Under the pieces are notes generated by a model. That model was given only the letters and a program-made list of their open reading frames with translations. It did no database searches and was not told the origin of the DNA. A stretch of 64,000 nt of DNA, from NCBI GenBank assembly GCA_963920765.1, contig OY987245.1:5286727-5350726 (forward strand), read 5' to 3'. This DNA is from Ulota crispa. Its lineage: Eukaryota > Streptophyta > Bryopsida > Orthotrichales > Orthotrichaceae. This document shows, in pieces, positions 13,940 to 63,230 of the stretch (its first letter is position 1; each line of letters begins with the position of its first letter). Position numbers and translations under genes: made by a program.

Positions 13940-14829
13940 ATTTCCATCTTTTAAAGCTTATAAAAATAGTTTATAAGATTTTTTTCTTTTATTCGTTTGG
14001 TTAGTAATAGAAGGAAAAATACTAAAAATACCTGTTAAGTCTTTCAAAATATCAAGTTTACGCCGAAAATATGTGAAACATAAAAAATAGTCATTATTTT
14101 TTGTAGGAATATCAATTATACTCCTATTATTTTGGAAGATTAAAAAAATAACTCTTCTATTTTGAAATGTTAAATATATCCTTGTGTTATTTGAAATGTA
14201 AAAATCACCTTTGGTTTCTTGTAAGAATTTGCATTAAACTATACACTTGGTTATCATGTAACACAAAGATATTTTTGATACTTTTAATCCTTAAGGGACA
14301 TATGTGATTTCTTCAAAGAATTGAGGAGCATCTTTTATATTTGTTTGTAAAGAAATTTTGGTATTTAAAACAACAAAATGTTGTACTTTTATATAAAATT
14401 TTGTTGAATTCGTGAAGTTGTGTCCAAAAGTGTCCAAATCAACAGAAAACTAATAATTTTTTTGTTAATATGGTCATGTTTTTACTTGACTTTAAAGATT
14501 GCTAATTTTAAATCTTACCAAATTGTGAAAAGTAAAGAAAATAAAACTAGTCAATGTACACTCAATTTTCTAAAAGATTCTTCTTTTTTTTGAAAACTCC
14601 TTTTATTTTTTAAAACTTCAAAAAAATTTAATGAGGTCCAAATAGATTTTAGAAAGATTTCAAAAACAAACCTAATCTATTGTGATAGTTTTTTGTTAAA
14701 AATATTTCAAAGTATTTTGATGAATTACAAAAAGATTCCTAAAGGACTCTAAGTCAATCTAAGAGATTCTATTTCTATGAGTATTTTGAAGTACTTTAAC
14801 AAATTTCATAAAGATTTTAAAAAGATTCT

Positions 14830-15800
14830 CAAAGATTCTAAAGAGGTTCTTGAAAATTCTCAAAGATTTTCAAAGATTTTTTGAATTTCAAAAAAGATTC
14901 TCAAATGATTCCCAAAGATTCCCAAAGATTCTTAAAGATTCTTAAAGCTTCTCAAAGCTTCCATGCAGATTCCAAGATCATTCATATAGATTTTCAAAAA
15001 TTCTCAAAAAAATTCAAAATTCCTAGAACATTTCCAAAGATTCTCAAATATTCCAAACTATTCTCAAAGATTTTTAAGAATTCTCAAATCTTCCTAAAAG
15101 ATTCTCAAAGATTCCTAAAAGATTCTCAAAGATTCTCAAAGATTCTCAATTGTTCTCAAACATTCTCAAAGATTCCAAAAAACTTGAAAACATTCCCAAA
15201 GATTCCCAAAGATTCCTAAAGATTCTCAAAGATTCTCAATTGTTCTCAAACATTCTCAAAGATTCCAAAAAACTTGAAAACATTCCCAAAGATTCCCAAA
15301 GATTCCCAAAGATTCCCAAAGATTCTCAAAGATTCTCAATTGTTCTCAAACATTCTCAAAGATTCCAAAAAAACTTGAAAACATTCCCAAAGATTTCCAA
15401 AGATTCTTGAAGATTCCAAAAAGATTCTCAAAGATTCTCAAAGATTCTCAAAGATTCTCAATTGTTCTCAAACATTCTCAAAGATTTCAAAAAAACTTGA
15501 AAACATTTCCAAAGATTTCAAAAGATTCTCAAAGATTCCTAAAAGATTCTCAAAGATTCTTGAAGATTCTCAAAGATTCTCAATTGTTCTCAAACATTCT
15601 CAAAGATTCTAAAAAAACTTGAAAAGTTTCCAAAAGATTTCCAAAGATTCATGAAGATTCCTAAAAGATTCTCAAAGATTCTAAAATCTCAAAAAGATTC
15701 TTAAATATTCTTAAAAATCTTGAAAAGATTCTTAATGATTCCCAAAAGATTCTTGAAGATTCTTAAAGATTCACAAAAAATTTCCAAAAGATCCTCAAAA
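14830..15800. repeat. 10-bp A-tract repeat array (AAAGATTCTC)n
   Basis: About 1 kb is built from AAAGATTCTC and variants (AAAGATTCCC, AAAGATTCCT). Embedded blocks with TTGTTCTCAAACATTCTC recur at 15151, 15241, 15341, 15463 and 15585. Spacings of 90, 100, 122 and 122 suggest higher-order duplication in near-multiples of 10 bp. The three overlapping open frames repeating KDSQRFLKIL arise because 30 bp encodes ten residues in any frame; they are not evidence of a protein. Phased A-tracts predict intrinsic curvature. Confidence 0.9.
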
Positions 15801-16493
15801 GATTCCAAAATTTCTGTTGATTTAGATAATGGTGTCCAAATCAACAAAACATATTTAGTTTTTTACAGAATTCTGTTAAATTAGTCAATTAGCGTGGGCA
15901 AGTGCCCAAATCAACAAGAAACTATTGGTTTTCTGTTGTTTTGGAAGGAGTTTTCTACTAGTGGTGGATGAAGGTCTGAGATTGAACAAAAACTTAAATT
16001 GTTAATAACCGTACAATAGAATTGAAACGCAATAATCCCAATGGTGAGATTGTTCTAGAAAGCAAACTTCACCCTCTTCAACAATTTTTTTTGAAAAAAT
16101 GTTAAACTTGCATTCAAAATTGAACTTTATAAGTTATTTTTTCAAAAAGATGCTTAAATTGCCCAAAAAACAAGATTGTCCATAACTTTCTCATAACTAG
16201 TCCAAATGGAATGAATCAAAGCTTCAGATGCAAATAAAACTATAACCTATGAGAAAAATTTTTTAAAAAAATTCAATTTTTTTTGCTGCCCAATTTCCAT
16301 AAATTTTTGTTTATTTAGGCATAACTTTTGCTTTTGGACATGGATTGGAATAAAAATTATATTCCCCAAAAGCTAATGTGTTTTCCTATTATCAAAAAAG
16401 GTTTCAAAAAATCAAAACAAAAATTGAGATCGTAGATACTTGCCCGAAATCTCATTTGTCCCCCAAGGGGACACTCGGGGATTTAGGGGTTAG

Positions 16494-31493: not shown

Positions 31494-37461
<5,968 letters not shown>

Positions 37462-41195: not shown

Positions 41196-44100
41196 ATGGG
41201 TCGAGACAAAGCGGATCGGTGAGTAATTGCTGTTTGACCCAGCTTGCTCCTTCACCGGTAATTTTGTATCCAAGTTTTCCAACACGATCTCTGTAAGTTT
41301 TGGGGTCTAATCTTGCCCGCGCAGGGACGCACAGCACGAATCTGGCCTGGAACCCAAGCACAAGATATTTTTGAGCCATAGCGGAGCGCAGAAGAGCTTC
41401 GTGGAGGCCTTGTGTGTTCAACTCGAGGACGTTCGTCGTTTCGCGTTCTTTGACAAACGCACCGACTGCTTGCCGTGGGGTGAGAGGTTTCCGCGATTTT
41501 AGACGCTGCGCGGCAGTGCCAGGTGACAGTCGTGGTGCTGTCGGAGGAGTACTTCACGCGCTCCAAGTGGCCCATGATCGAGCTGGTTAATTTTATGCAA
41601 CAACTGGAGTCAAGTATAAAGGTATTCCCGCTTCTTTACAAGATATCCCTCTCGGATCTGCGCGATTCAGAAAGGCAGAGGCGATGGGTCTCGGTGTGGG
41701 AGGAGTGGGCAGCTGCGGATCCAAGGATCAAGCTCCCGGAATGGGAGGCTGCATTGAAGTGGCTTCTAAGCTTCAGAGGAATGGAATACTTCAAGCAAGA
41801 AACGGATAATTCAGACCTTGAAGACCCGGACTCACTGAAGGAGTACCAAGACAAAGTTGTAGAAGCCTTGGTCGAAATTGTGGATCCCGATGTGCTTCAC
41901 GGTGAAAATGCGCGCGACATTCAAGGCAAGGAGAGAATCTGTCAGGTCAGTAAAACCCAAGCAGATCTCACTTTTAGGGGTTCTAATTTTTAGAGGAATG
42001 GAATTCTCATGGGGTGTGACTTTGGTGATTGGTAACTTCTTTGTTCCACAGGAAATTCGCGCCAAGTTTGAGGAACCGGGCGGAGTGGGGCGCGCGTGGT
42101 GGGCTTTTACGGGATGGGCGGAATCGGCAAAACAACCTTCTGCAAGCTGTTATGCGATGTTCTGGAGAAGCAGTTCTTGGGCAAAGTGTGTCACGTGGAA
42201 TTGGGCCACCAGAGGGGCGAATTGGAGTTGTTGATGCTCGCCATTGGATCCCTCACAAATACAGCGAGTCCACGCGGCTTTCATTCATGGACCGAGAGCC
42301 AGGTTTTACTCAACCCTCTTGTCTGGAAGTAGGGTCTTACACATAGTGCCTTGTGCGCTTGTTTCTTAAAATTGTTCTTTCCATCGTTGCTACAAACATG
42401 ATAGTCTGTAAAAACCTTGGTGGGTAGTGCATTTCTGTGAATGTATGGGCAGCTCCGCAGGCTTACATCTTTACTAGGTCCTAGAAGGTCCCATTTCTTT
42501 GAAGCTGTAGGGTTCATCCATTCAGGAGAAACAATATTTCAATGTACAAACCCCGCCCATGATGGCATAAACCTTGTAGATTTCTAATTTTTAGTAAGAC
42601 TTTAGAACCCTCCCACTCTCCCAGTGTCCTCAAACAACCCGGTTTTATTGTTGTCAACCATGCTTTTGCCTTTTCACACTTAATTGGCTAACCCACACGT
42701 GGTGTCAGTTAAAACAAGAAGATATGGACCATCTCAATCGCAACCCAAACATAATGGCATTATGTGTATGGGGACTTCACAAACTTTCAGAGAGTCGTGC
42801 AATCTCCCATGCGGGAATGATACCGTCGCGGGTGGAGTCGCCTTAGCATAAAGATGCTTGTTACTGACAATACCAAGTGACATGAAACTCTACATTCTTT
42901 GTATAAAACATGCTACTCTCGTGCTAATTACTATGTAGCCCTCACGTTCTAACTGGAGATGGGGGGCAATGCAGTGCCTAGATTACTTGAGCAAGGAAAT
43001 GCGGAGGAAGCCAACATTTTTGGCTCTAGACAACGTATCACTGGAATCACTCAAGCTTGCCCTTGAGCTACTACAATTAGGGTTTCATGAGAAGAGCTCG
43101 GTGCTCGTGACAGCGCATACTCATGACATACTTGCGTCCCACCTGAAGATTGACATCTCGGACTGTATAGAAATGCCACATCTTACCAAAGACGAAGCAA
43201 CCAAGTTGTTCCTCAAGCACGCGGCACGTGGTAATCCTTCTCTCAAGGACGAGGACAACTACGACTCCACCATCGAACAGTGTGTTAAAGCCTGTTATTT
43301 TAGCAAGGGAGATAAGCAGGCTGGTCATCACTATCATCCACTAGCACTCCTGGTGTTGGGGGAGCAGCTGCAGGGCAAGGAGTTTTCAAAATGGCTGGAA
43401 ATCTTGAAGGAAGAGCCTGACGTATTCAACCTTTTAGGAAACAGGATTCACCCTGTCTTCAGCGTTCTGTACCGAAGCTACAGCAGCTTGCGTGAAAACG
43501 ATCGGCTCATGTTCTTGGATGTGGCTCTCTTTATTCCTGGGAAATACCGGAGGGTGATGACACCTGGAAATGTTATCAGCTGGCTTAGCTCGGTCCATAA
43601 CATAAATTTTACTCAGGTCCGCAATCAGGTATGACTTCTTTTTCATAACTGGTGTATCTAGTGAGTTTCTGATCGTTGTTGTCACTAAGTGCCATTTCGG
43701 GACTTTAAAGCTTGGTCGCAACCATTTTTTACGGTTGAGTTTTGCACATTTTCATCCAATTTTATTGATGAAAGAGATGGTGTGCTCGCTGTTCACACCG
43801 ACTGGTTGCACGTGCTGTTGAATCCTTTGTACCTGAACTTGAAAAAAGATGTGATTGTACCAAGTGCTTGAGGGGTTTGTTTTTAGCTTCTCCAGTTTGG
43901 AAAGATGGACAGTCCTATCTAAAAGCAAAATGGCCAATTTCTATCCTCTAATGAAGCCTTTGTCCTCTAATAATGAAACGAAGTGATCTTCTAACTTTTG
44001 TGCCCCTTTTTTATGTAATTAGAGATCCGCACCTATCATGCACCATTATCTTGACAAGCAATAGTGTGGATAACTCAACAAGTTCTTGCAAATCTTGATA

Positions 44101-45813
44101 TCTAACAGTAGAAAAACACCTCATCTTTTCATTACATCGTGGTTATGCTATTGTTAAAGGTGTACAGTTCAATCTTTGTAGCAAACCCTCTGTCAATTTA
44201 TAAACAAATTAAAAGACCCCCTTCAAGTATGTTGATCTCCAACATGACGAAAAAAGCTGTTAGTAATAATTTAAGTCTGTTTTTTCCTTGCCATGAAGTA
44301 CGCTGTTCTGTGCTTCTGACTTGTGTTGCTTGTAATCCCCTTTGCTCAGTTGGAGCTTCTTAAGACTCGAGGGCTGTTGGACAACTTCAATGCGCACTCC
44401 TGCAGAATTAGTGTGCACGATTTATTCCGGGAACTTGCACAAATGGAAGCGAAATCAGAGGACCTCGATTCTCGAACATGCGTGTACGAGACTCGCAGTT
44501 TGTCCGAGTTTCAGAAACGAAGACGCGGAGGCTGTTGTCCGGACTTACGCAGGATTGCTTTGACGAACAACAAGGACAACAGTTTAAATCACTTTCCGGG
44601 CATTCGGTGGGACTATTTCTCGAATCTCGTTGTTTTGAAGCTTTTCAAGTGCGACATTCTCCACGACGACTTGAACTTGAAAGAGCTGAAGTTTCTACGG
44701 TCCTTGGAGGTGTGCGCTTGTTGGAGCCTCACTCAACTTCCGGGCCTGCGAGAGCTGAAGTACCTCACCTACTTGAGACTAGTCGGTGCTCCAGTATTCA
44801 CGCAAACGCTTGATCAACTGCCCGTGTCACTCAAGCATCTGCACTTGCAAGATCTCGGGAAGCTTTCTTCCCCGCCGAATCTTGACCATTGTCCCAACCT
44901 ACTCGAGCTCACGGTCGAGGACTGTCCGAAACTGTGCATGTTTCCAGATTTAAGCAAGCTGACGTCGTTACAGAAGGTTCTCTTCGGGTACTGCAACCAA
45001 GCTTCCGTTGTCGAAGGTTTGAATTCGAGTTTGTCGCGGTTGGAATCGCTGACGGTGGTCGGGACCACGAATCAGCTGATAAGTTGCCCTAATCTTGACA
45101 CGGTGACACGCTTGGAAGGTCTTCTACTTGGAGGTGTTGATGCTACAGAACTCGACTTCCAGAACTTTACTTGTTTGAAACGGTTGGGGATCTACAATAG
45201 CAAGCTGACAAGAGTGTCCGGGCTTGAAAATCTTACCAAATTATGCCACATCTTCCTCGCTGGATGCAGGGCCTTGCTAGCCTTGGACAACGTCCGCCGG
45301 CTTCCTGCGTTGGAAATGCTCGACCTTGGAGATTGTGGCAGTTTGAGGTCATTGAAGGTTTATGATTGTGCGAAGTTGAGTAAGATTTTAGGGTTCAGTG
45401 ACCTAACTGCATTGGAGGAGCTGCATCTGTCAAATGTCGGCGTGGAAGATATCCCGGATCAAAGAGAAGGGTCTATAAATTCATACCCGAGAGCTCCGCC
45501 GAACTTTGGTAGGTTAAGAATTCTTTCCCTGCGCGGATGCACAGAGTTGAAGGGTTTGAAGAAAATGGGGTCGTTGCTTGCGTTGCAATCACTTGATCTG
45601 TCCGGGTGCAGCAAGCTAGAAGAATTACCGGATTTGCGGAGCTCCCATACGCTTGAATCGCTTGATATTTCTCAGACTGCGGTGCATCTGCGATTCCGAG
45701 ATGTGAACACATTCGCTACCATGCCCGTGTTGAGTCCAAACCGCTCAATGAGGGAGGCGTTATCGGAGCCGGCGCCAGACAAGAACGAAATGAATGTGAG
45801 ATCGCCAGTCTGA
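41196..45813 (+). pseudogene. TIR-NB-ARC-LRR immune receptor gene with two frameshifts
   Basis: Five exons: 41196-41218, 41325-41945, 42052-42302, 42975-43628, 44350-45813. All introns are GT/AG. The ATG exon (seven codons plus two bases) joins the TIR exon in phase. TIR: KIFLSHSGAQKSFVEALC, FFDKRTDCLPWGE, VTVVVLSEEYF and SKWPMIEL. NB-ARC: P-loop GMGGIGKTT, kinase-2 FLALDNV, RNBS-B-like SSVLVTAHTHDIL, GLPL-like HPLALLVLGE, and VHD in place of MHD. Ten or more plant-type LRRs follow (CPNLLELTVEDCPKL; LSGCSKLEELPDL), ending at TGA 45811-45813. Such proteins are intracellular sensors of pathogen effectors. A missing base near 41501 breaks the TIR frame, and two extra bases in GCGCGC near 42095 break the frame before the P-loop. 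Exon lengths become phase-consistent only when these are allowed for. It is a recent pseudogene, or the window contains sequencing errors. Corrected length is about 1003 residues. Confidence 0.85.
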
Positions 45814-52625: not shown

Positions 52626-55264
52626 CTAGGGATCCCACGATAAGAGAAGTGGCGAACGTACCTCTTCATCATTTAACGATTCTTCCGAATTGTCGAACGA
52701 CCGTGCGGGGTCATGTGTGTGATCATCTTCCACGTTATCAGGAGTCTGATCTTTCTTTGACTCGCTTGCAGGCAGGAGTATGTCAGCCAGCTTGGCGACG
52801 TCCCAAATGTCCTTCGCATAATCCTTTGCCTTCAATTGGGTTTTTTTCAATGGAAGCAATTCTAATACCTTACACTGCGATACCTGTGATATTTTTTAAT
52901 GACAAAACATATTTAATATGAGTACATGGATAGAAATGAAATCGCTTTTATTAGAGCAGAAAATCAAGGTGGTAGTAACATATCAATCCCAGATTTGTAA
53001 TCTTTGGACCACCGTTGATATTTACAATGCACATGTCTTTGTTCATGTACTGGTAGAACATATCCATTGGAGTTTGCATCCAAAGCCAAGGAAGATTATC
53101 TTGCTTCAAAAATCGTTAATTGTCTTCCTATCCGTCCGCATTATAGAATGGTTTCATAACCGCCGGACCCATGAAGTATATGGAGAATCTATTATGCTTT
53201 GCAATTTCTTTGTCATAGCCGTAAACACATAGGATATGACAATTAAATCTGCTACTATTAGCCGGCTTGGAAAAAATGTCAATCAAAAGAGGAAAATATT
53301 TTATCATGTGTGTACACCAAACCTTCTTCTTTGTATCCTTCCACCGTTTCTGAAGGTAACTACAAATTGCCACCATTCCTTTGGCATCTGTGAAAAACAC
53401 CGCAATAGATTGGGCAATTATCTGTGGAGAATTACTCCTGGGTTCAATATACTCAAGTGCGTTGAAGAATTTTCTTCGAATGAGGCTCCTTCAAGTGAAT
53501 TGCACGCGTTTCTTTACTGGCTTTCAGTGATTTCTTGAACATGAACGCAAAGTACATGTAGAACTTTGCCTTTTCACGCCATGCAGCGATGTCGGGGTCT
53601 GCCATGAGTTCACTCATATTCCACGCTTTGAAATCCATTCTAAGGGCCAAGTACATCTTTTCATACTCCTCTTCTCGCAAAGTTGTAGCGCAACTCTCAT
53701 TGGAAATATCAATCGTGGTAAACCACATGTTTTTTACCCATGCTGGGCAGTCTTCCAAATTTGCAGTCTTCACCAGGGCTTTTAACTGACCATCCAGCCA
53801 TTTCTTCCTTGCCACATTATCCAGGGCTCTGGAGGTCCAAAAGAAGACGTCCTTCTCCATAACGTGACGGACACTCATGAATGCGTTCCAATCAGCTGCT
53901 GGGTATTTGACGTATTCAATCTTCTTTGCTGGAAGTAGGCAGTTGCAATAATGATTCATCAACTCATTCTTCATTGCTCTCTTGTACCTAATCCAAGTGG
54001 CAACATCCTTCAGGGAATTGATGACGTTCCCTGCTGCCGGGTTCTTGAGCAAATGCCCTTCATACATATCTTTTGCGCTTCCACCAGAGGCGCCAAATAG
54101 TTAATGTCCTCCGTTTGGAGTCCATATAGTGGTTTGAAATCAAACTTAGTTAGCGATTTCTAGTTTGCGTTTTCGGTGAGCACGACCATCTTGGCACCAT
54201 TGAGGAGGTATTCTGCAACAAATTGTTCTTCAATTGCAATCTAGCGGTTGACATTGGCATCATCTTTAAGGAACATGAGTGGAACAAGTGGATTTGATTT
54301 CTTCTTGTCGTTACTACTCTTGCTTACGAAGATTATGACTAAGGATGGGAGGAATCTCTACAGAGAACAAAACAACAATTAGTTTTTAGGACAATTAGGA
54401 AAAGCGACTCGATTAGAGCCGTATCTAGGAATCCCCGGATGAGGCGACAAAATAGTTACTTAAGAAATTAACAAGGCATGCCTTTGATACTCTTGTATCT
54501 AGGGATCCCGAATTGATGGACAAGCCAGTTAGGATTCAGGACGTTCATAGCATTTGATTGTATAAGATCCTTATTGGGGATCCTTGGATGGAGGAATTAA
54601 CGAGTAGGTTACTTGAACACTACCAAAACACAATATCCAAAGTCCCGTATTGAGGGATCCCCATATGCAATGGACAAGCTGCAATTTCAAAGAGGCTCAA
54701 ATCTAACCTTGTACTCCGCGGAGTGCTTCTACCCCTCTATCAATGGCTGTGGACTTTTGATTGCCTTCCACTTCTTCCTCGCAGTTTGCAGCTGCTGAGT
54801 GAAGCACTGCTCTTTTTGGGCTCCCGCAATGTTCTGGTTGAGGGACTTTGACAGTAGAAAATTGCATGAAGTCCTTCTCGTGAGCCCACAATGGAATAAT
54901 GTTGAAGGTGGACGCCATTGGCATGTCCTCAGGTTGCACTGTTCCATTCTATACGAGGACTCAATGAGCTTTGACTCTGTGTTGCCCGCCAATAATGTAG
55001 TAGAAGGTCTTTTTGGTGATATTGGATTTCTTGGGTGGCTTCTCAAAATTATTGACTGCCTTGCTTGTTCGTGGGGGACCTCGTTTGAGAGGGAGGACAT
55101 AGATGTTTTGATTGTCCAAGTCATAATTCCCATGAATCCGGATATCTAAAATTATCCCATCTAGCCGCTCCTGAATAATTCCTCTATAAACAATATCTCC
55201 TACTAGAGCTCTTTGCGAGCTCTTCAAGCCTTTCTTAGTAGTTGTTGTCCTCAATGACAAAGGT
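52626..55264 (-). pseudogene. DGQHR-like gene, downstream copy, degraded
   Basis: Function unknown. Recognisable minus-strand exons: 55264-54708, 54357 to about 53120 (exact end uncertain), and 52883-52626 with an acidic tail ending SSWDP-like before TAG. The first exon holds TTKKGLKSSQRALVGDIVYR, then FYYIIGGQHRVKA, an SLNQN segment and an ARKKW helix, parallel to the upstream copy (NGQHTVEAL, YYNQTN, LWENYG). The donor after AEYK aligns with the donor after MESYK in the other copy. The second exon is rich in W, K and F (YEGHLLKNPAAG, DVATWIRYKRAMKNE). It is broken by TGA 54961, by TAG at 54949, 54729, 54241, 54160 and 53128, and by about three frameshifts (near 54865, 54070 and 53475). GQHR-type motifs occur in ParB/sulfiredoxin-fold DGQHR proteins such as DndB; that link is by motif only. 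Confidence 0.6.
54358..54707 (-). repeat. Intron with four GGGATCCC repeats about 75 bp apart
   Basis: This 350-bp intron of the downstream DGQHR-like copy carries GGAATCCC at 54428, GGGATCCC at 54502, GGGATCCT at 54577 and GGGATCCC at 54654. Spacings are 74, 75 and 77. TATCTA or TATTGA precedes three of them, and GATGGACAA-like sequence often follows. Between the cores the sequence is not obviously shared. Similar cores lie at the 3' end of the gene (52604 and 52629). Confidence 0.7.
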
Positions 55265-55318
55265 CTGCAATGAAAGCATCTGAGGAGAACACAACAGTCA
55301 TGCAGTAAGCTTATGTAA

Positions 55319-55657
55319 ATTTAACTCAAATTGAGTTAAATAGCTGAACCTGTAGTTCAGCACTAATTTCACTATAATATGTGACCATCGTTTTATTTCA
55401 GAAGAGTTCAAATAGAGATCTAGGATTTAACTCGGCTCAAGTTAAATTGAGCCATATATTCTAGATATATACTTTACTATGAGACAATGATTGTCTAACT
55501 GTACAGATGAACACAATCAAGGATTCAAGATTTAACTCAACTTGAGTTAAATCCAGTCAATTAGAAGGGCAGTCAATTAAAACACTATGGTAAGATCTTC
55601 AAAAGATAGAACATGATACAAAAAACTATCCATGATTTAACTCGAGACGAGTTAAAT
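55319..55657. repeat. Four palindromes TTTAACTC/GAGTTAAA, about 105 bp apart
   Basis: Each copy is about 23 bp, ATTTAACTC, a 5-base centre, then GAGTTAAAT (one has CAAGTTAAAT). Starts are 55319, 55425, 55530 and 55635, spacings 106, 105 and 105. The spacers of about 82 bp look unrelated to one another. The array fills the intron between the last long exon of the upstream DGQHR-like gene (ends 55667) and the acceptor at 55265. Confidence 0.9.
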
Positions 55658-57049
55658 GGTACTTACCCACGCAGCGCACATGATCTTCCCTCCACCAAAT
55701 ATGGAGATGATTGAATCCCTCAATTTGCATAGCAGACCCAGCACCTTCAAGTAGAACTCCATCCTCAAGTCAGTGTTGTAAATCCGGTAGAATGTCTCAT
55801 TGTACTGCCCTAACTTGGTGTACCTATTGATTGATGGAGTGCGGAACTCGTTTGGAATTTGCCTTGGTTTGATCCCGGAGTTCATCTTTATAAAGAAGAT
55901 CAACTGCAAGGGAGCCTTTGACTTTCCGATCCTCTCCAATAGATCCTCCAGTCGCTCGTTGGAGGATGGATGGTAGATGGAAATGTGCAGAGCATATACC
56001 TCTCCTAGTGGCTTTGCCCGAATGTACAATTGCAGCAGCGACTCCATGTCCTGGTCTTTGGCAATCCATAGCCACACCGCTGGATTGGTAAGATGAGGAT
56101 CGTCTTGCTTGCTCAGCTCTTCTAGAAATTTGTTGAAGTATGGAGCCGTATAAACATCCTTGCTAATGACTCTCAGGACATTGCAGAAGTCAATCAATGC
56201 AAGGGTCAGCCTGGAATCCTGCATCTTGTCGCTGGCGTCGATGGACCAATCTCCGAGTTTGCCACTTTCCATGTTGTAGGATTGTAGGAAAGCTATCGCC
56301 TCCAGTTTTTGGAACTTGCCCTTGGTCTTCAAGAAGAGCTTGAAAAACTCTTTAGAGTATGGAGACAAGTCATAGATTGACTTGTTCCTGTTGCAAGTCT
56401 TCTTGATTTCTGCAAAGTACAGCTCCCCTGGTTTTATCACCAGTGTATTCATTATTGCCGGGCTGACATTATAGTTTTTCTTGAATGCCTTCCATGCATC
56501 CACCCTCAACACGTTGTTGGGATTGAACAAACGCAGTGTGTTGTTGAGGTTGTGGAGTTGCCACCGCACGAAATGTTCCTTTTTACACCGTTCAAGCCAA
56601 TCCTTGGCGGTGTACCAATCCGGTAGGACCCCTGATGGTTTCTTCATTACCACCTTTGGATGGGGATACACGCCTTTGGGAGTGCAATTCACCAGGTGTG
56701 TGGCAAGCCTCCTGAGGTTGTCCATTGACACATTTCCCATTCCCTTGAAGAACTTGCAAGCAATGACGTCGTCTTTTGTTGCACTCTAGCCCTTGGTGTC
56801 CTTGAACTTCAGGCATGTGTCGGAATTGATGAGTTCCCCGGATGAGGTGCTGAAGATGAATGCCTTCCACATATCGTAAACCGGCTGAGGCGCGGTTATA
56901 ATCTTAATTTCATTGTGGATGTCGACGTCCTTTTTCTTCTTTAATGCGATCTGGCTCTTCTTGATGTCAATGTTGCCAAAACAAGTGGCGACTACGTTTA
57001 CAAAATTCTGCAGATGTGATAGATTACATTGGTAGTCAGTGAGGGTCAA

Positions 57050-57223
57050 CTTTTAACTCGAGTCAAGTTAAAGTGAGGGAATGGTGAATAGCAATTGAGT
57101 TGAACACAATACATTCACGAGAAGGATTTAACTTAAGTTGAGTTAAATTGGGGAGCTGAAAGCTGTTATAGAGTTGCAAAAAATATATTTGCATCAAAAA
57201 AATTAACTCAAATTGAGTTAAAT
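57050..57223. repeat. Three palindromes TTTAACTC/GAGTTAAA, about 75 bp apart
   Basis: Copies at 57050, 57126 and 57201 have spacings 76 and 75. They fill the 221-bp intron (57008-57228) between the two long exons of the upstream DGQHR-like gene; the last copy ends five bases from the donor. The spacers are unrelated to each other and to those at 55.3 kb. Confidence 0.9.
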
Positions 57224-58089
57224 CTTACCTTGTAACTCTCCATATTGGTGACATCCTGTGGTATGGTCTTTCTGTTGTTGAATGCTGGCCTTTCTATTGC
57301 GTTTGCTTCTTTTGGAGGAGCTAGACTCCCGTAATTTTCCCATAACTAGCGGGATCCAATTATATTTGTTGCCCATGAAGGCAAGAAGTTCTGGAAATGG
57401 TTTGTTTGGTTGTAGTACGCCAAAATTTTCCAGATTATGGATTGATCCTTGTTCCATACTAGAAAGCAATCCCACGTCCTGAAAATCTTCACTCTCTCTT
57501 CCATTTGCTTGATTGTCTGCAATCTCTTCAACGCCTCCACGGTGTGCTGGCCATTAATCATCCAAAACCTTGCATCCTTGACATCTTCAAAGGACTTTGG
57601 TTTCTCTTTCAAATCCTGTGGCATTTTGCACAAAGTCATTCTCTGTGTAGGGTCTAGCATGTAGAGGAGGAAGTTCTGAGCTTTCAAAACTCTGGCTTCC
57701 TTGAGGCCCCGGACATTCAAATATGCCGATGGGGTTTCTAGTTGGTCAATGCTGATGGCGTACTTGTCCTCAACCGAAGGAACATAGGAGTCTGTGCACT
57801 CCTTCCAGAAGTCCTTGTACACCTTGCATGATAGCTCGGGATTGATATCATGACCATTAGGGCCTATGTCTATTGGAACATTGAGTACCTCAAACGTGAT
57901 GCTACTCTCTGCAAGAGGTTGCTTCTCGACGGATTTTGGCATCGCATTCTTCCTTGCCTTTGCTGCCAATGCCGATGCCGATGTTGGGACTGCGGATGGT
58001 GTTCCTCTGCCATCAACTAGGGTGGTTTTCTTCTTGGTTCTACTTTGGCGTGAACCCAAAGTTGCCATATGAGCGAACCATGGCTGCTT

Positions 58090-58729
58090 CTGCCTTGACC
58101 ACTATAATTGCGGGTAAGAGATACAGGTTCCACATTCTTGGCCTTCCGCAGATTACCTTCCCTTATATTCTAAAAATCCCAAACAAGTCCATTACATCTT
58201 GACGCTAGTATTTTGGCGGGTAATTGGGATCCGTCTTTGTTCTGGTAGTACTTGCTCTATATTTGTTGGTCTAGTTTGTCTTGAATACTAGCAAAGATAC
58301 TGTTCGTCAGACTCTTCCAATATGCTGACAGGGAAAACAAAGTTTTCTTGCTGGGAATGGCGTAGGTGAAGTTGTACTGGTTGTCTTTGTTCACACCAAT
58401 CATGGTTGTTTTGCAAGAGATGAGAACGGTATTTCCAAGCTTGTCGCTGAATAGGGTCACTTTTCTTGAAGTGATACTAGGAGCTCTGACTCAGAGTTCT
58501 TGAATTTGGACATGAAGCTCAACTCGCTCGACATGGGTACTAATGTCAGTGTCCAGTACTCAATGTCGTGAGGGGCTTTTGGTTCCCAGCATTCTCCGAC
58601 CACTAGTTCATCACCGTAGCTGCTGACACTATCTTCTGTCACTACGATTTGGTCAAAGAGTACTAGGAGTTTAGTTTGTTGCTCTGCCCTCACTCTTTCA
58701 GCGCTTCCAAAAAGCTGTTGCTCTGCCAT
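58090..58729 (-). pseudogene. Leader module upstream of the DGQHR-like gene
   Basis: From the ATG at 58729 the frame reads MAEQQLFGSAERVRAEQQ and then a segment with ECWEPKAPHDIEYW. A one-base slip in an AAAA run near 58463 moves to the frame with DKLGNTVLISCKTTMIG. Coding-like sequence continues through TAG at 58257 and TAG at 58170 to about 58090. It may be the first exon of the DGQHR-like gene or a small separate gene; its frame does not run into the ATG at 58068. I recognise no domain. A TTTAACTC palindrome lies 28 bp upstream of the ATG. Confidence 0.5.
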
Positions 58730-58756: not shown

Positions 58757-59494
58757 TTTTAACGCAAGTTGAGTTAAAACTTCCTTGTTCTAGAGTGTTG
58801 TTTGTCCCATGATTTATTCCATTGTATTTATCATATGTGTGGTACTATGTGTATATGTGATTTTCAGGTTCTTTGGGAATTTATCATGTACAATTCAAGA
58901 GGTTTATGTCTACGTTATGAGCTAGTTGTTCGTCTACTAATTTTGTGATGTCTTCGACATATGATACTTAGATCTTGTTGTCATATATTTAACTCAACTC
59001 AAGTTAAATTTATTGTCTATTTTGTACAAGGACGTTCATTTTCAACCGTGCAGCCTATTAGTCTTATACTTAGAGAAAGTCTTTTGTTGACATTTATATG
59101 GAGTGTCTATGTTTGTTCAGATCAACCGTTGTATGGCTGAATTGTCATTGTAACTTCAGCCATTTAACTCAAGTCGAGTTAAACCTTGTCATTCTTAGAT
59201 GTTTTCTAAGTGTGATTACTGGCCAACAGTTGTATAATTGTTGTTTTGAGCCCAGTCGAAGTTATATTGTTTGGAGGCATGTTCAGTGTCATATGATTTC
59301 ATAGATAAAATTTTGTATGTTGTTTCCTTTTAACTCAAGTCGAGTTAAAATTCTCCATTCTTTCCAATTTTCCAAGTCCAGTGCTTGCACAATGACACAG
59401 AAACTAACATTTTTTAGCTCAATTTGAGTTTAAAATATTGTATGCACGGCTCTCAAAGGACCACAAGTCAAGTTAAATTGACATCGACTTAAAT
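58757..59494. repeat. Five or six palindromes upstream of the DGQHR-like gene
   Basis: Copies lie at 58757, 58987, 59162, 59328 and 59413 (degraded), with half-sites at 59464-59494. Spacing is irregular (230, 175, 166, 85). The consensus is TTTAACTC, five to seven bases, GAGTTAAA. This is the 5' flank or a leader intron of the minus-strand gene. Confidence 0.8.
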
Positions 59495-61092: not shown

Positions 61093-61283
61093 AGAGAGGA
61101 GGCTCGTAAATGGCGCTGACGGAAAGTGCACTTAAGGTAGCCACACCCGTAACCATCATTGTACCCCCAGCACCTCTAAAATCTTTGAAAATTTGTAGAA
61201 ATGAATACATGTAATTACAAGGTTGTACAATATCTGAACATGAAACACTAGTGTTGGTGGAGGGTGCAATGGCAGTTTTCTCT
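61093..61283. repeat. Truncated copy of the 46915 element and 88-bp unit
   Basis: GAGGAGGCTCGTAAATGGCG resembles the 46915 left end. The rest is the reverse complement of one 88-bp unit and its flank (ACACTAGTGTTGG also at 62700). Confidence 0.5.
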
Positions 61284-62202
61284 TTAACCCCTAAAGGACC
61301 AAGCAAAGTTTTCACCAAATACTCTTCAAAATTGCCATTTTTAGAGCATCAACCAAATTTGAAAAAATATATATTTTTATGCATATGTGACTGTAGGATC
61401 TTGTAGAAGAATGGTTATATAAGATGTGAAAAAAAATTCAGAGTTTTCCACCACGTGGATTGGAAGTTAGAATGATTTGAATATTCAAAAACGTCTTGTC
61501 AAAAACCGGGCAGCTACCCTTCAAACGGTGAAATTCCTAAGGAAAAAAAGGCCATGTGGGTGATGCTTCTCTAAATTCCTTATTCCACCTAAGTAAAGTA
61601 CATGTCAAAAAAGTTTCAAATTATTTGGAATTGTATAACATATGGGAAAAAATTAGTAAGTAAAAAGAAGTAGAGAATGATTCAAAACACTAAATTGTTA
61701 AGAATTTCATTATGGAAATGAAAAATGCCGATCCCAATGGTCATAATGTTTTTATAAACAATATTCATCCTTTGGTGTTTTTTTTCTAAAATGTTGAAAA
61801 ATGAGTAAAATAAAGGACTTCAAAGATTATTTTGGAGTAGAGAATCCATAACTGCCCACAAACATAAAACCCTCATAACTTTCATCTCATTGATCCAAAC
61901 GGAATAATTCAAAGCTTTGTACATTCACATAAATGTCTTAAATCCATTAGAAATTTTTGTTTTTGAAAAAAGTGATTTAAAAAATCTGCTCAGGCTGCCC
62001 GCCGAAGGTAAAAAACAACATATTAGGCCATAATTTTTTACTCATAATTTCAAATGTCATGAAATTTAGTGCATATGAAAGACAAACCTTGTCCCCACAT
62101 TCCATTAAAATTTCAAAATAAAATATGAAAAGCTCCAATCACAGGTACCTGCCCAAAATTGCAATATTTCTAAAAAAGGGGGTCTGGTCCTTTAGGGGTT
62201 AA
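61284..62202. mobile_element. TTAA-type TIR element, 919 bp
   Basis: It is flanked by TTAA at 61284-61287 and 62199-62202. The ends CCCCTAAAGGACCA and TGGTCCTTTAGGGG are exact inverted repeats, the best-preserved termini of the family in the window. It has no transposase. Confidence 0.9.
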
Positions 62203-62519
62203 AATTTGAGAACTTATTCTCACAATATCCAAACCAAACATTTGAAAGTGCAAATTCATTTTTTTTTTGTTGCTAAAAGGATCCTAGACTTTGCTAGATG
62301 TTTGTTAATAATCATCATGTTCAAAACCCTTAGTTTCACAATTATGGGTGTGGCTTCTTTATGTCTAAAAATGAATGCAACTTGGTATTTTTGGAAATAC
62401 ATTGGTTAGAAGTATGAATATACTAACCTAATTGGCCATTTCACTTCAAATTCAATGAGTTAGTATGAATCAACTAAAATTCATCAAATCATATGGTGCA
62501 ATGGTACTAATGTGAGAGC

Positions 62520-63230
62520 ACCCATAAACAGGAAACTAAGGGTTTTGAACATGATGACTATTAATAAATAAATAGTAAATTCTAGGATCCTATTAGCAAC
62601 ATAAAAATAATGAATTTACACTTTCAAATATATGATTTGGATATTGTGAGAATAAGTTCTCAATTTTTTAAAAGCAAACTGCCATAGCACCCATAACCAA
62701 CACTAGTGTTTCATGTTCAGATGTTGTACAACCTTGTAGTTACATGTATTCATTTCCACAGATTTTCAAAGATTTTAGAGATGACGGTTATGGAAACATT
62801 GATGCTGATGGGTATTCCTACTCTAGCTATTTTTGATGATAGGTGGTACCACTGACAGTGCAAAAGTGGCTTCTAAATAAAGGACATTAGTCCTAAAAGC
62901 TACCACTACTGAGCAAAGTATGCTCCTACAAGGCTCTTCAAGTGGGGCAAGGACCCATTGCATGTTCTAAAATTCAAATCATGATTGAGAACATGTTTTC
63001 ATTTATATTAATATGACATATACGTATATGTTATTGAAAGACAAAATTCAACACAAGTATGAGCAATGTGCACATAGAACATGAGCTCATGTCAACATAT
63101 GAATTTCATATATTAACAATGCATGCAGAAGTTCAAATGTATATATAGCAAATGTTTTCAATTTAAGAACCCTCGTGCAATGATTTTGTGATCCCTACAC
63201 TGTCCATTCAAAATGAGAGCCCCATATTAT
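62520..63230. repeat. Mosaic of repeats shared with 20.9 kb and 47 kb
   Basis: Bases 62520-62840 match 20880-21440, with one 88-bp unit instead of four. Bases 62940-63226 match the right half of 46915-47512. It is probably one composite repeat seen in different states. Confidence 0.55.

Follow-up and report, generated by a model that had tools for sequence, protein, structure and literature searches.

Palindrome arrays in the introns of a moss gene: candidate self-recognition sites of a two-gene DNA transposon

Why the introns of one moss gene should be built as evenly spaced arrays of a single palindrome is the question raised by a stretch of 64,000 nucleotides from Ulota crispa (contig OY987245.1 of assembly GCA_963920765.1, positions 5,286,727 to 5,350,726), referred to here as the window. 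Our sequence comparisons assign the gene, which lies on the minus strand and encodes a protein with predicted ParB-like and DNA methyltransferase-like folds, to a large DNA transposon, in which it has one partner gene. The palindromes lie in the non-coding parts of this gene and upstream of its partner, their arms follow the phylogeny of the gene, and miniature inverted-repeat transposable elements (MITEs) carry them. We consider it probable that they are self-recognition (operator) sites of the transposon, bound by its own ParB/methylase-like protein, a binder to which the predicted folds and the co-variation of the arms point. An earlier note, made from the letters of the window alone, had drawn attention to the arrays; its observation is partly confirmed and its interpretation partly supported by the analysis presented here.

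Anatomy and upkeep of the arrays

The window contains 12 palindromes, none assigned to a strand, of which seven lie in two introns and five upstream of the same gene (58757-59434). Intron 2 (55265..55666, minus strand; donor GTAAG at 55666, acceptor AG at 55265 or 55280) holds four on a 105-bp tandem unit, at 55319..55341 (ATTTAACTC AAATT GAGTTAAAT), 55425..55447, 55530..55552 and 55635..55657, the last beginning 9-10 bases past the donor. Three more, on a 75-bp tandem unit, occupy intron 1 (57008..57228, minus strand; donor GTAAG at 57228, acceptor AG at 57008) at 57051..57073, 57126..57148 and 57201..57223, the last beginning 5-6 bases past the donor. The palindrome at 58757..58779, 5' of the first coding exon, is probably in a 5' intron, with an AG directly before the ATG at 58729, and the 5' region continues with sites at 58987..59009, 59162..59184 and 59328..59350 and a weaker one at 59412..59434 (14 of 18 arm positions) that has a corresponding site in several relatives. 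The exact pattern TTTAACTC-N3..9-GAGTTAAA matches the window five times, whereas 100 shuffled versions average 0.01 matches. The intronic setting and the regular spacing that the earlier note had reported are thus real, with intervals of 106, 105 and 105 bp in one intron; those of the other are 75 and 75 rather than 76 and 75, and the five upstream copies contradict its statement that the palindrome does not occur elsewhere in the window.

The same arrangement is found across 21 closely related loci (the window copy and L005-L024), in which sites were detected with the AAC consensus at a minimum of 13 of 16 arm letters, a setting that underlies the anatomy, spacer, half-site, identity and exon counts. 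Palindromes occupy homologous places in the 5' region and in both introns, and often also downstream of these, one of the groups being missing in a few loci. Most intervals in intron 1 measure 75-82 bp, L019 and L010 each having a single one of 121-124 bp, and most of those in intron 2 measure 98-127 bp, apart from exceptions in L010, L016 and L019. Copy number varies as well: a contiguous intron 1 holds between 1 and 5 palindromes. Helical phasing was considered and rejected, as spacings of 75-82, 98-127 and 133 bp share no evident phase by eye. Within intron 1 the spacers are 0.657 identical (17 pairs, 21 loci), and within intron 2 and beyond 0.579 (31 pairs, 21 loci), against 0.487 (standard deviation 0.041) for shuffled pairs, whereas spacers from different regions compare at the chance level of 0.479. 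The arrays therefore grow by tandem duplication of the palindrome together with its spacer, and the palindrome is the best-kept part of a 75- or 105-bp unit. This gives definite form to the array growth that the earlier note had left to an unknown mechanism and overturns its impression that the spacers are unrelated. Its view that any likeness to a clustered regularly interspaced short palindromic repeat (CRISPR) array is superficial proves sound: such an array is ruled out, since the spacers are tandem copies and the gene is spliced.

Conservation within the unit is uneven. Pooled over 11 pairs of copies, identity is 0.858 in the arms, 0.813 in exon 1, 0.742 in intron-1 spacers, 0.704 in the core and 0.687 in 5' spacers, and in 9 of the 11 pairs no other class is kept as well as the arms. 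A count over exon 1 and the flank on either side of it in the 21 loci found no sites in 29,925 bp of the exon-1 region, against 149 in 30,975 bp of flank, in keeping with the reported absence from exons. Because the arms are kept better than the spacers and the exon-1 region is free of sites, selection on the palindrome is supported, as the earlier note had proposed; a site for a dimeric protein fits, and the hairpin that it offered as the other option does not, as mirror positions vary independently.

Arms, genes and the element

The arms of the palindrome change with the gene that carries them. All 21 close relatives have TTTAAC arms. In eleven distant copies, whose exon-1 protein is 29-39% identical to that of the window, the same core stands at the same non-coding places with other arms in ten, and L029 has no palindrome of this form. 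Distant-clade arms are mostly TTTAGG or TTYAGC, the main type being AGG in L026, L027 and L035, AGC in L025, L028, L030, L033, L034 and L036, and AGA in L037; these were read with a detector free of AAC arms, the later count being confined to half-sites that have A at position 4, and one part of the reading covered 9 of 27 loci. On the first-exon tree, in which long branches are flagged for L029 and L024, the commonest arm requires 3 changes, against a minimum of 7 and a mean of 9.4 in 300 label shuffles. The arms of different regions within one copy mostly change together, and they agree at the ParB-like and partner genes in all seven elements in which both were seen (AAC in those of the window, L006, L015 and L014, AGG in L035 and L026, AGC in L025).

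Homologous genes in two contigs of another organism (L042 and L043) carry palindromes in a 5' intron (four, L042 only), intron 1 (one and two) and intron 2 (one and three), with arms mostly TTCAGC. Both are filed under the cyanobacterial metagenome-assembled genome AVDCRST_MAG81 but have GT-AG introns, and we infer that they are eukaryotic contamination. At about 4381-4420 of L042 an intron-2 palindrome extends, by eye, to about 35 bp, and the contig ends where another seems to begin.

Across 228 sites (456 half-sites), positions 8-9 read CA in 216, TG in 147, CG in 58 and TA in 9. A mixture of CA, TG and CG is what methylated CpG leaves as it decays, and the older form of the site would be TTTAACTCGANTCGAGTTAAA; L042 and L043 fit this form, with TCGANTCGA intact in 5 of the 6 sites of the former and 3 of the 5 of the latter. 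The idea that GANTC is protected as a core was rejected, since 205 of the 456 half-sites retain its G (CG 58 plus TG 147) and the 216 with CA have another base there. Mismatched pairs at positions 9/13 (G-T 50, A-C 45) are set against A-T 61 and G-C 56, and positions 8/14 show 26 double changes against 31.6 expected; the half-sites vary independently of their mirror positions, against an RNA hairpin. The C-terminal residues of predicted proteins from other sources (P0002, P0009, P0010, P0012, P0018, P0021 and P0024) fit read-through into the palindrome, judged from reverse translation by eye.

Genome-wide (275 Mb, 157 contigs), the exact pattern TTTAACTC-N3..9-GAGTTAAA occurs 65 times, against 5 for its reversal. 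About half of the positioned sites (32 of 61) have a match to the gene no more than 6 kb away, and the matches with their 6-kb margins make up 0.25% of the genome; this count used 61 of the 65 sites and 69 of 75 gene matches, the 75 having been merged by hand into about 57 copies (at least 57 loci). Of the two findings that the earlier note had said would undo its reading, diverged tandem copies between the palindromes were found, and a random spread with no link to the gene family was not. The 6.3-Mb contig C11 holds 26 of the 61 listed exact palindromes and 21 of the 69 gene rows, well above its share, and is perhaps a non-recombining or accessory chromosome. Two gene copies on it, C11:4774607-4777303 (plus strand) and C11:4819595-4822291 (minus strand), have identical scores, as in an inverted duplication.

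A second gene, which encodes DUF7869 (E values of 4e-19 and 3.4e-17 for two pieces), was found by way of exact sites distant from the first. Palindromes stand beside this second gene in three of five second-site stretches (L031, L038 and L040), while L039 and L041 have palindromes and no DUF7869; the seven in L041 are spaced 122, 77, 150, 77, 122 and 135 bp, nearly mirror-symmetric. When the 57 loci are set against 104 of 119 DUF7869 rows, the other 15 being fragments of genes already listed, DUF7869 lies within 45 kb of 39 ParB-like loci, head-to-head in 38 and tail-to-tail in 1; matches to either gene are lower bounds, with 111 of 284 DUF7869 candidates scored. The partner of the window copy, at C4:5364148-5365248, is outside the window and has four AAC sites 0.7-1.7 kb upstream. 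No relative of DUF7869 was found in the PDB, and in NCBIfam one piece gave a sub-cut-off match to IcaB (20.7 bits; cut-off 248).

The ends of the element are shared with much shorter copies. The left end on C1, beyond DUF7869, and the right ends in L023, L009, L008 and L018, about 6.2-6.4 kb past the reference ATG, align with the two different ends, 5' and 3', of the MITEs L044, L045 and L001, so that full-length and miniature copies have terminal inverted repeats in common, as is characteristic of class II DNA transposons. Both ends of the C1 element could be placed, giving about 23.4 kb, its right end being placed from a match at the margin of L006. The MITEs measure roughly 300 bp and carry palindromes of the AGC (L044, L045) and AAC (L001) types, and a further pair (L046/L047) carries AGG palindromes; a 171-bp MITE piece has at least 91 matching stretches, with 40 of 787 candidate places scored. 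No clear target-site duplication was seen at the few ends examined.

Candidate binders of the palindromes

The first coding exon (57229..58729, minus strand) and the second (55667..57007, minus strand) are damaged in the window copy, by stops and frame changes in the former and one in-frame stop in the latter, and downstream of intron 2 this copy diverges from its relatives. Homologues were modelled. The exon-1 homologue P0001 has a predicted ParB-type N-domain fold of the ParB/sulfiredoxin superfamily, the superfamily at which the earlier note's label of DGQHR-like had correctly hinted, and the exon-2 homologue P0018 is predicted to fold as a beta-class N6/N4 DNA methyltransferase. The DPPY-type catalytic motif is not kept (EPPVW, EPPIW, ELPVW, NPAVW and others; DPP in one of 11 rows, P0025, its position set by eye), and this domain probably serves DNA recognition, not catalysis. 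Sequence searches of Pfam, PHROGs, NCBIfam and the PDB gave no above-cut-off or convincing family for either part, and one scan of viral_contigs with two short patterns, made in view of a possible viral origin, matched no relative of the ParB-like protein. Beyond the gene, the minus-strand stretch 53400-55275 of the window contains a second GGQHR-type motif (YIIGGQHRVKA) with many stops, the family similarity ending just before it; in other copies an NIF (FCP1-like) phosphatase-like stretch lies downstream (E values of 4.7e-8 in L006 and 1.3e-6 in L016).

These features suggest a mechanism in which the ParB-like/methyltransferase-like protein would bind each palindrome as a dimer, one subunit per half-site, the half-site consisting of an arm (TTTAAC, TTTAGG or TTYAGC) and the TYRA half of the common core. 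With so many sites in clusters, the protein could load along the roughly 23-kb element, where it may regulate or de-silence both genes and may label complete and miniature copies alike as substrate; many such sites can be accommodated in introns and flanks without changing the protein. ParB itself binds palindromic parS. In a more speculative version, which we offer tentatively, a phage- or prokaryote-type ParB-methyltransferase fusion would have been captured by a eukaryotic transposon and would use parS-like palindromes in introns, flanks and MITEs, with a core TCGANTCGA that has GANTC at its centre, as loading points of a nucleotide-driven clamp; from there the clamp would extend along the 23-kb element, hold off its silencing and mark it as self, with arms and protein re-coding each other in new lineages.

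Several observations weigh against this assignment of sites and binder. Foldseek gives the ParB-like domain a best E value of 0.0095, the models were built from few sequences (17 and 12) with mean predicted local distance difference test scores of 56.7 and 48.5, and neither a helix-turn-helix nor an above-cut-off Pfam match to ParB or helix-turn-helix families was found in the ParB-like protein; a ParB-like domain by itself need not touch DNA. Some distant copies carry more than one type of arm (AGC5/AGG4 in L025 and AGA5/AGG3/AGC2 in L037, among others), one AGC site lies inside the AGG element of L035, and in two of the 11 pairs (L010/L021 and L011/L023) the arms are not the best-kept class. 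Among the scored matches, 18 of the 57 loci have no DUF7869 within 45 kb. Near neither gene are 15 of 50 AAC, 43 of 56 AGG and 43 of 50 AGC sites among those listed, from totals of 130 AAC, 148 forward AGG and 405 AGC sites compared with 57 gene loci and 65 DUF7869 rows; of such sites, the few examined fall in MITEs.

The strongest competitor, which we nevertheless judge unlikely, would have the DUF7869 protein, a putative transposase, bind the palindromes across the element and its MITEs and leave the ParB-like protein another role. The head-to-head arrangement in 38 of 57 loci and the palindromes upstream of DUF7869 in three of five second-site stretches would suit such a binder, as would the palindromes of the MITEs, which usually retain only what transposition requires. 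As the arms agree at both genes, their co-variation does not separate the two proteins; the densest arrays seen, however, lie inside the ParB-like gene (12 sites in the window), and the PDB search gave DUF7869 no relative to support a role in DNA binding.

Could the palindromes be without function, chance features of ordinary diverged tandem repeats copied along with the transposon? The tandem origin of the within-intron spacers would allow it. This is improbable, as the palindrome is common to both introns and the 5' region, whose spacers are unrelated to one another (0.479, chance), and as the exon-1 region lacks sites, the arms are kept above the spacers, and the arms of a copy's regions mostly change together. 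We give little credence to recognition by a host DNA-binding protein that the transposon exploits: palindromic sites suit many host factors and the core is common to all clades with sites, but the arms differ among clades in one genome, following the element's own gene, which argues against a single host factor. RNA hairpins in pre-mRNA, acting as splicing, small-RNA or stability signals, would explain perfect inverted repeats, mostly intronic, on the transcribed strand and one of them 5-6 bases past a donor, yet they are very improbable given the independence of mirror positions (counts at 9/13 and 8/14) and the sites in MITEs far from the gene. Self-recognition by the ParB-like/methyltransferase-like protein thus remains the reading that we favour, and if true it accounts for the palindrome-array look of one gene's introns.

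Elsewhere the window contains an element-like stretch (61171-62783) with 117-nt inverted arms (90% complementary, 1379 nt apart) and an inner pair of 150 nt at 87%, the end of which also matches near several family loci; an NB-ARC-like open frame (41523-45813; 22.5 bits, cut-off 23.5) with TIR-like and LRR-like neighbours by eye, the NB-ARC likeness being suggestive of a land plant; a thiolase N-terminal piece (32658-33038); and a long degenerate tandem array of a AAAGATTCTC-like unit (14821-15812).

Relation to known systems

In the literature searched we found no mention of DUF7869, and among the titles and abstract openings listed there no ParB-like plant or moss transposon with intron palindromes. 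The closest parallels come from three systems. TnpA of En/Spm binds repeated short motifs of its own element, subterminal and in the promoter, and is linked to methylation. The moss element would likewise pair a transposon protein with repeated motifs in its own element, binding being deduced here from co-variation, but its arrays lie in introns and 5' regions.

Fusions of a ParB-CTPase fold with an N6_N4-methyltransferase are reported to be commoner in phages, with enrichment in prophages (PMC12704722). The moss protein resembles them in its predicted order of folds, ParB-like first and beta-class methyltransferase-like second; it differs in being eukaryotic, intron-bearing and within a DNA transposon, in having no sequence-level match to bacterial families and in not keeping the DPPY-type motif. 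If our reading is true, ParB-fold biology, so far mainly prokaryotic and of phages, extends to a eukaryotic transposon.

The VANDAL elements of Arabidopsis and their VANC proteins offer a third comparison. There, an element that also encodes a transposase produces a protein whose binding and anti-silencing are established, and short non-palindromic motifs (YAGTATTAY, AGTTGTMC) lie in introns, intergenic and terminal parts and are absent or weak in coding parts, within tandem repeats that expand and contract and that differ between related families (PMC5735166, PMC10398659). The moss sites, too, lie in non-coding and not in coding parts (0 in 29,925 bp against 149 in 30,975 bp beside), in tandem repeats of varying copy number, and they differ between related element clades in step with the encoded protein; by this analogy the element may work like the VANC system. 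In contrast to VANC motifs, the moss site is a full palindrome of about 21 bp, the protein is predicted to be ParB-like and methyltransferase-like, and the second gene encodes DUF7869. Three arm codes (AAC, AGG and AGC) over a common core in one genome make a recognition code testable, with arms readable from sequence, and, if true, the system would be a second case, beside the Arabidopsis VANDALs, of a transposon protein and its arrayed target motifs changing together.
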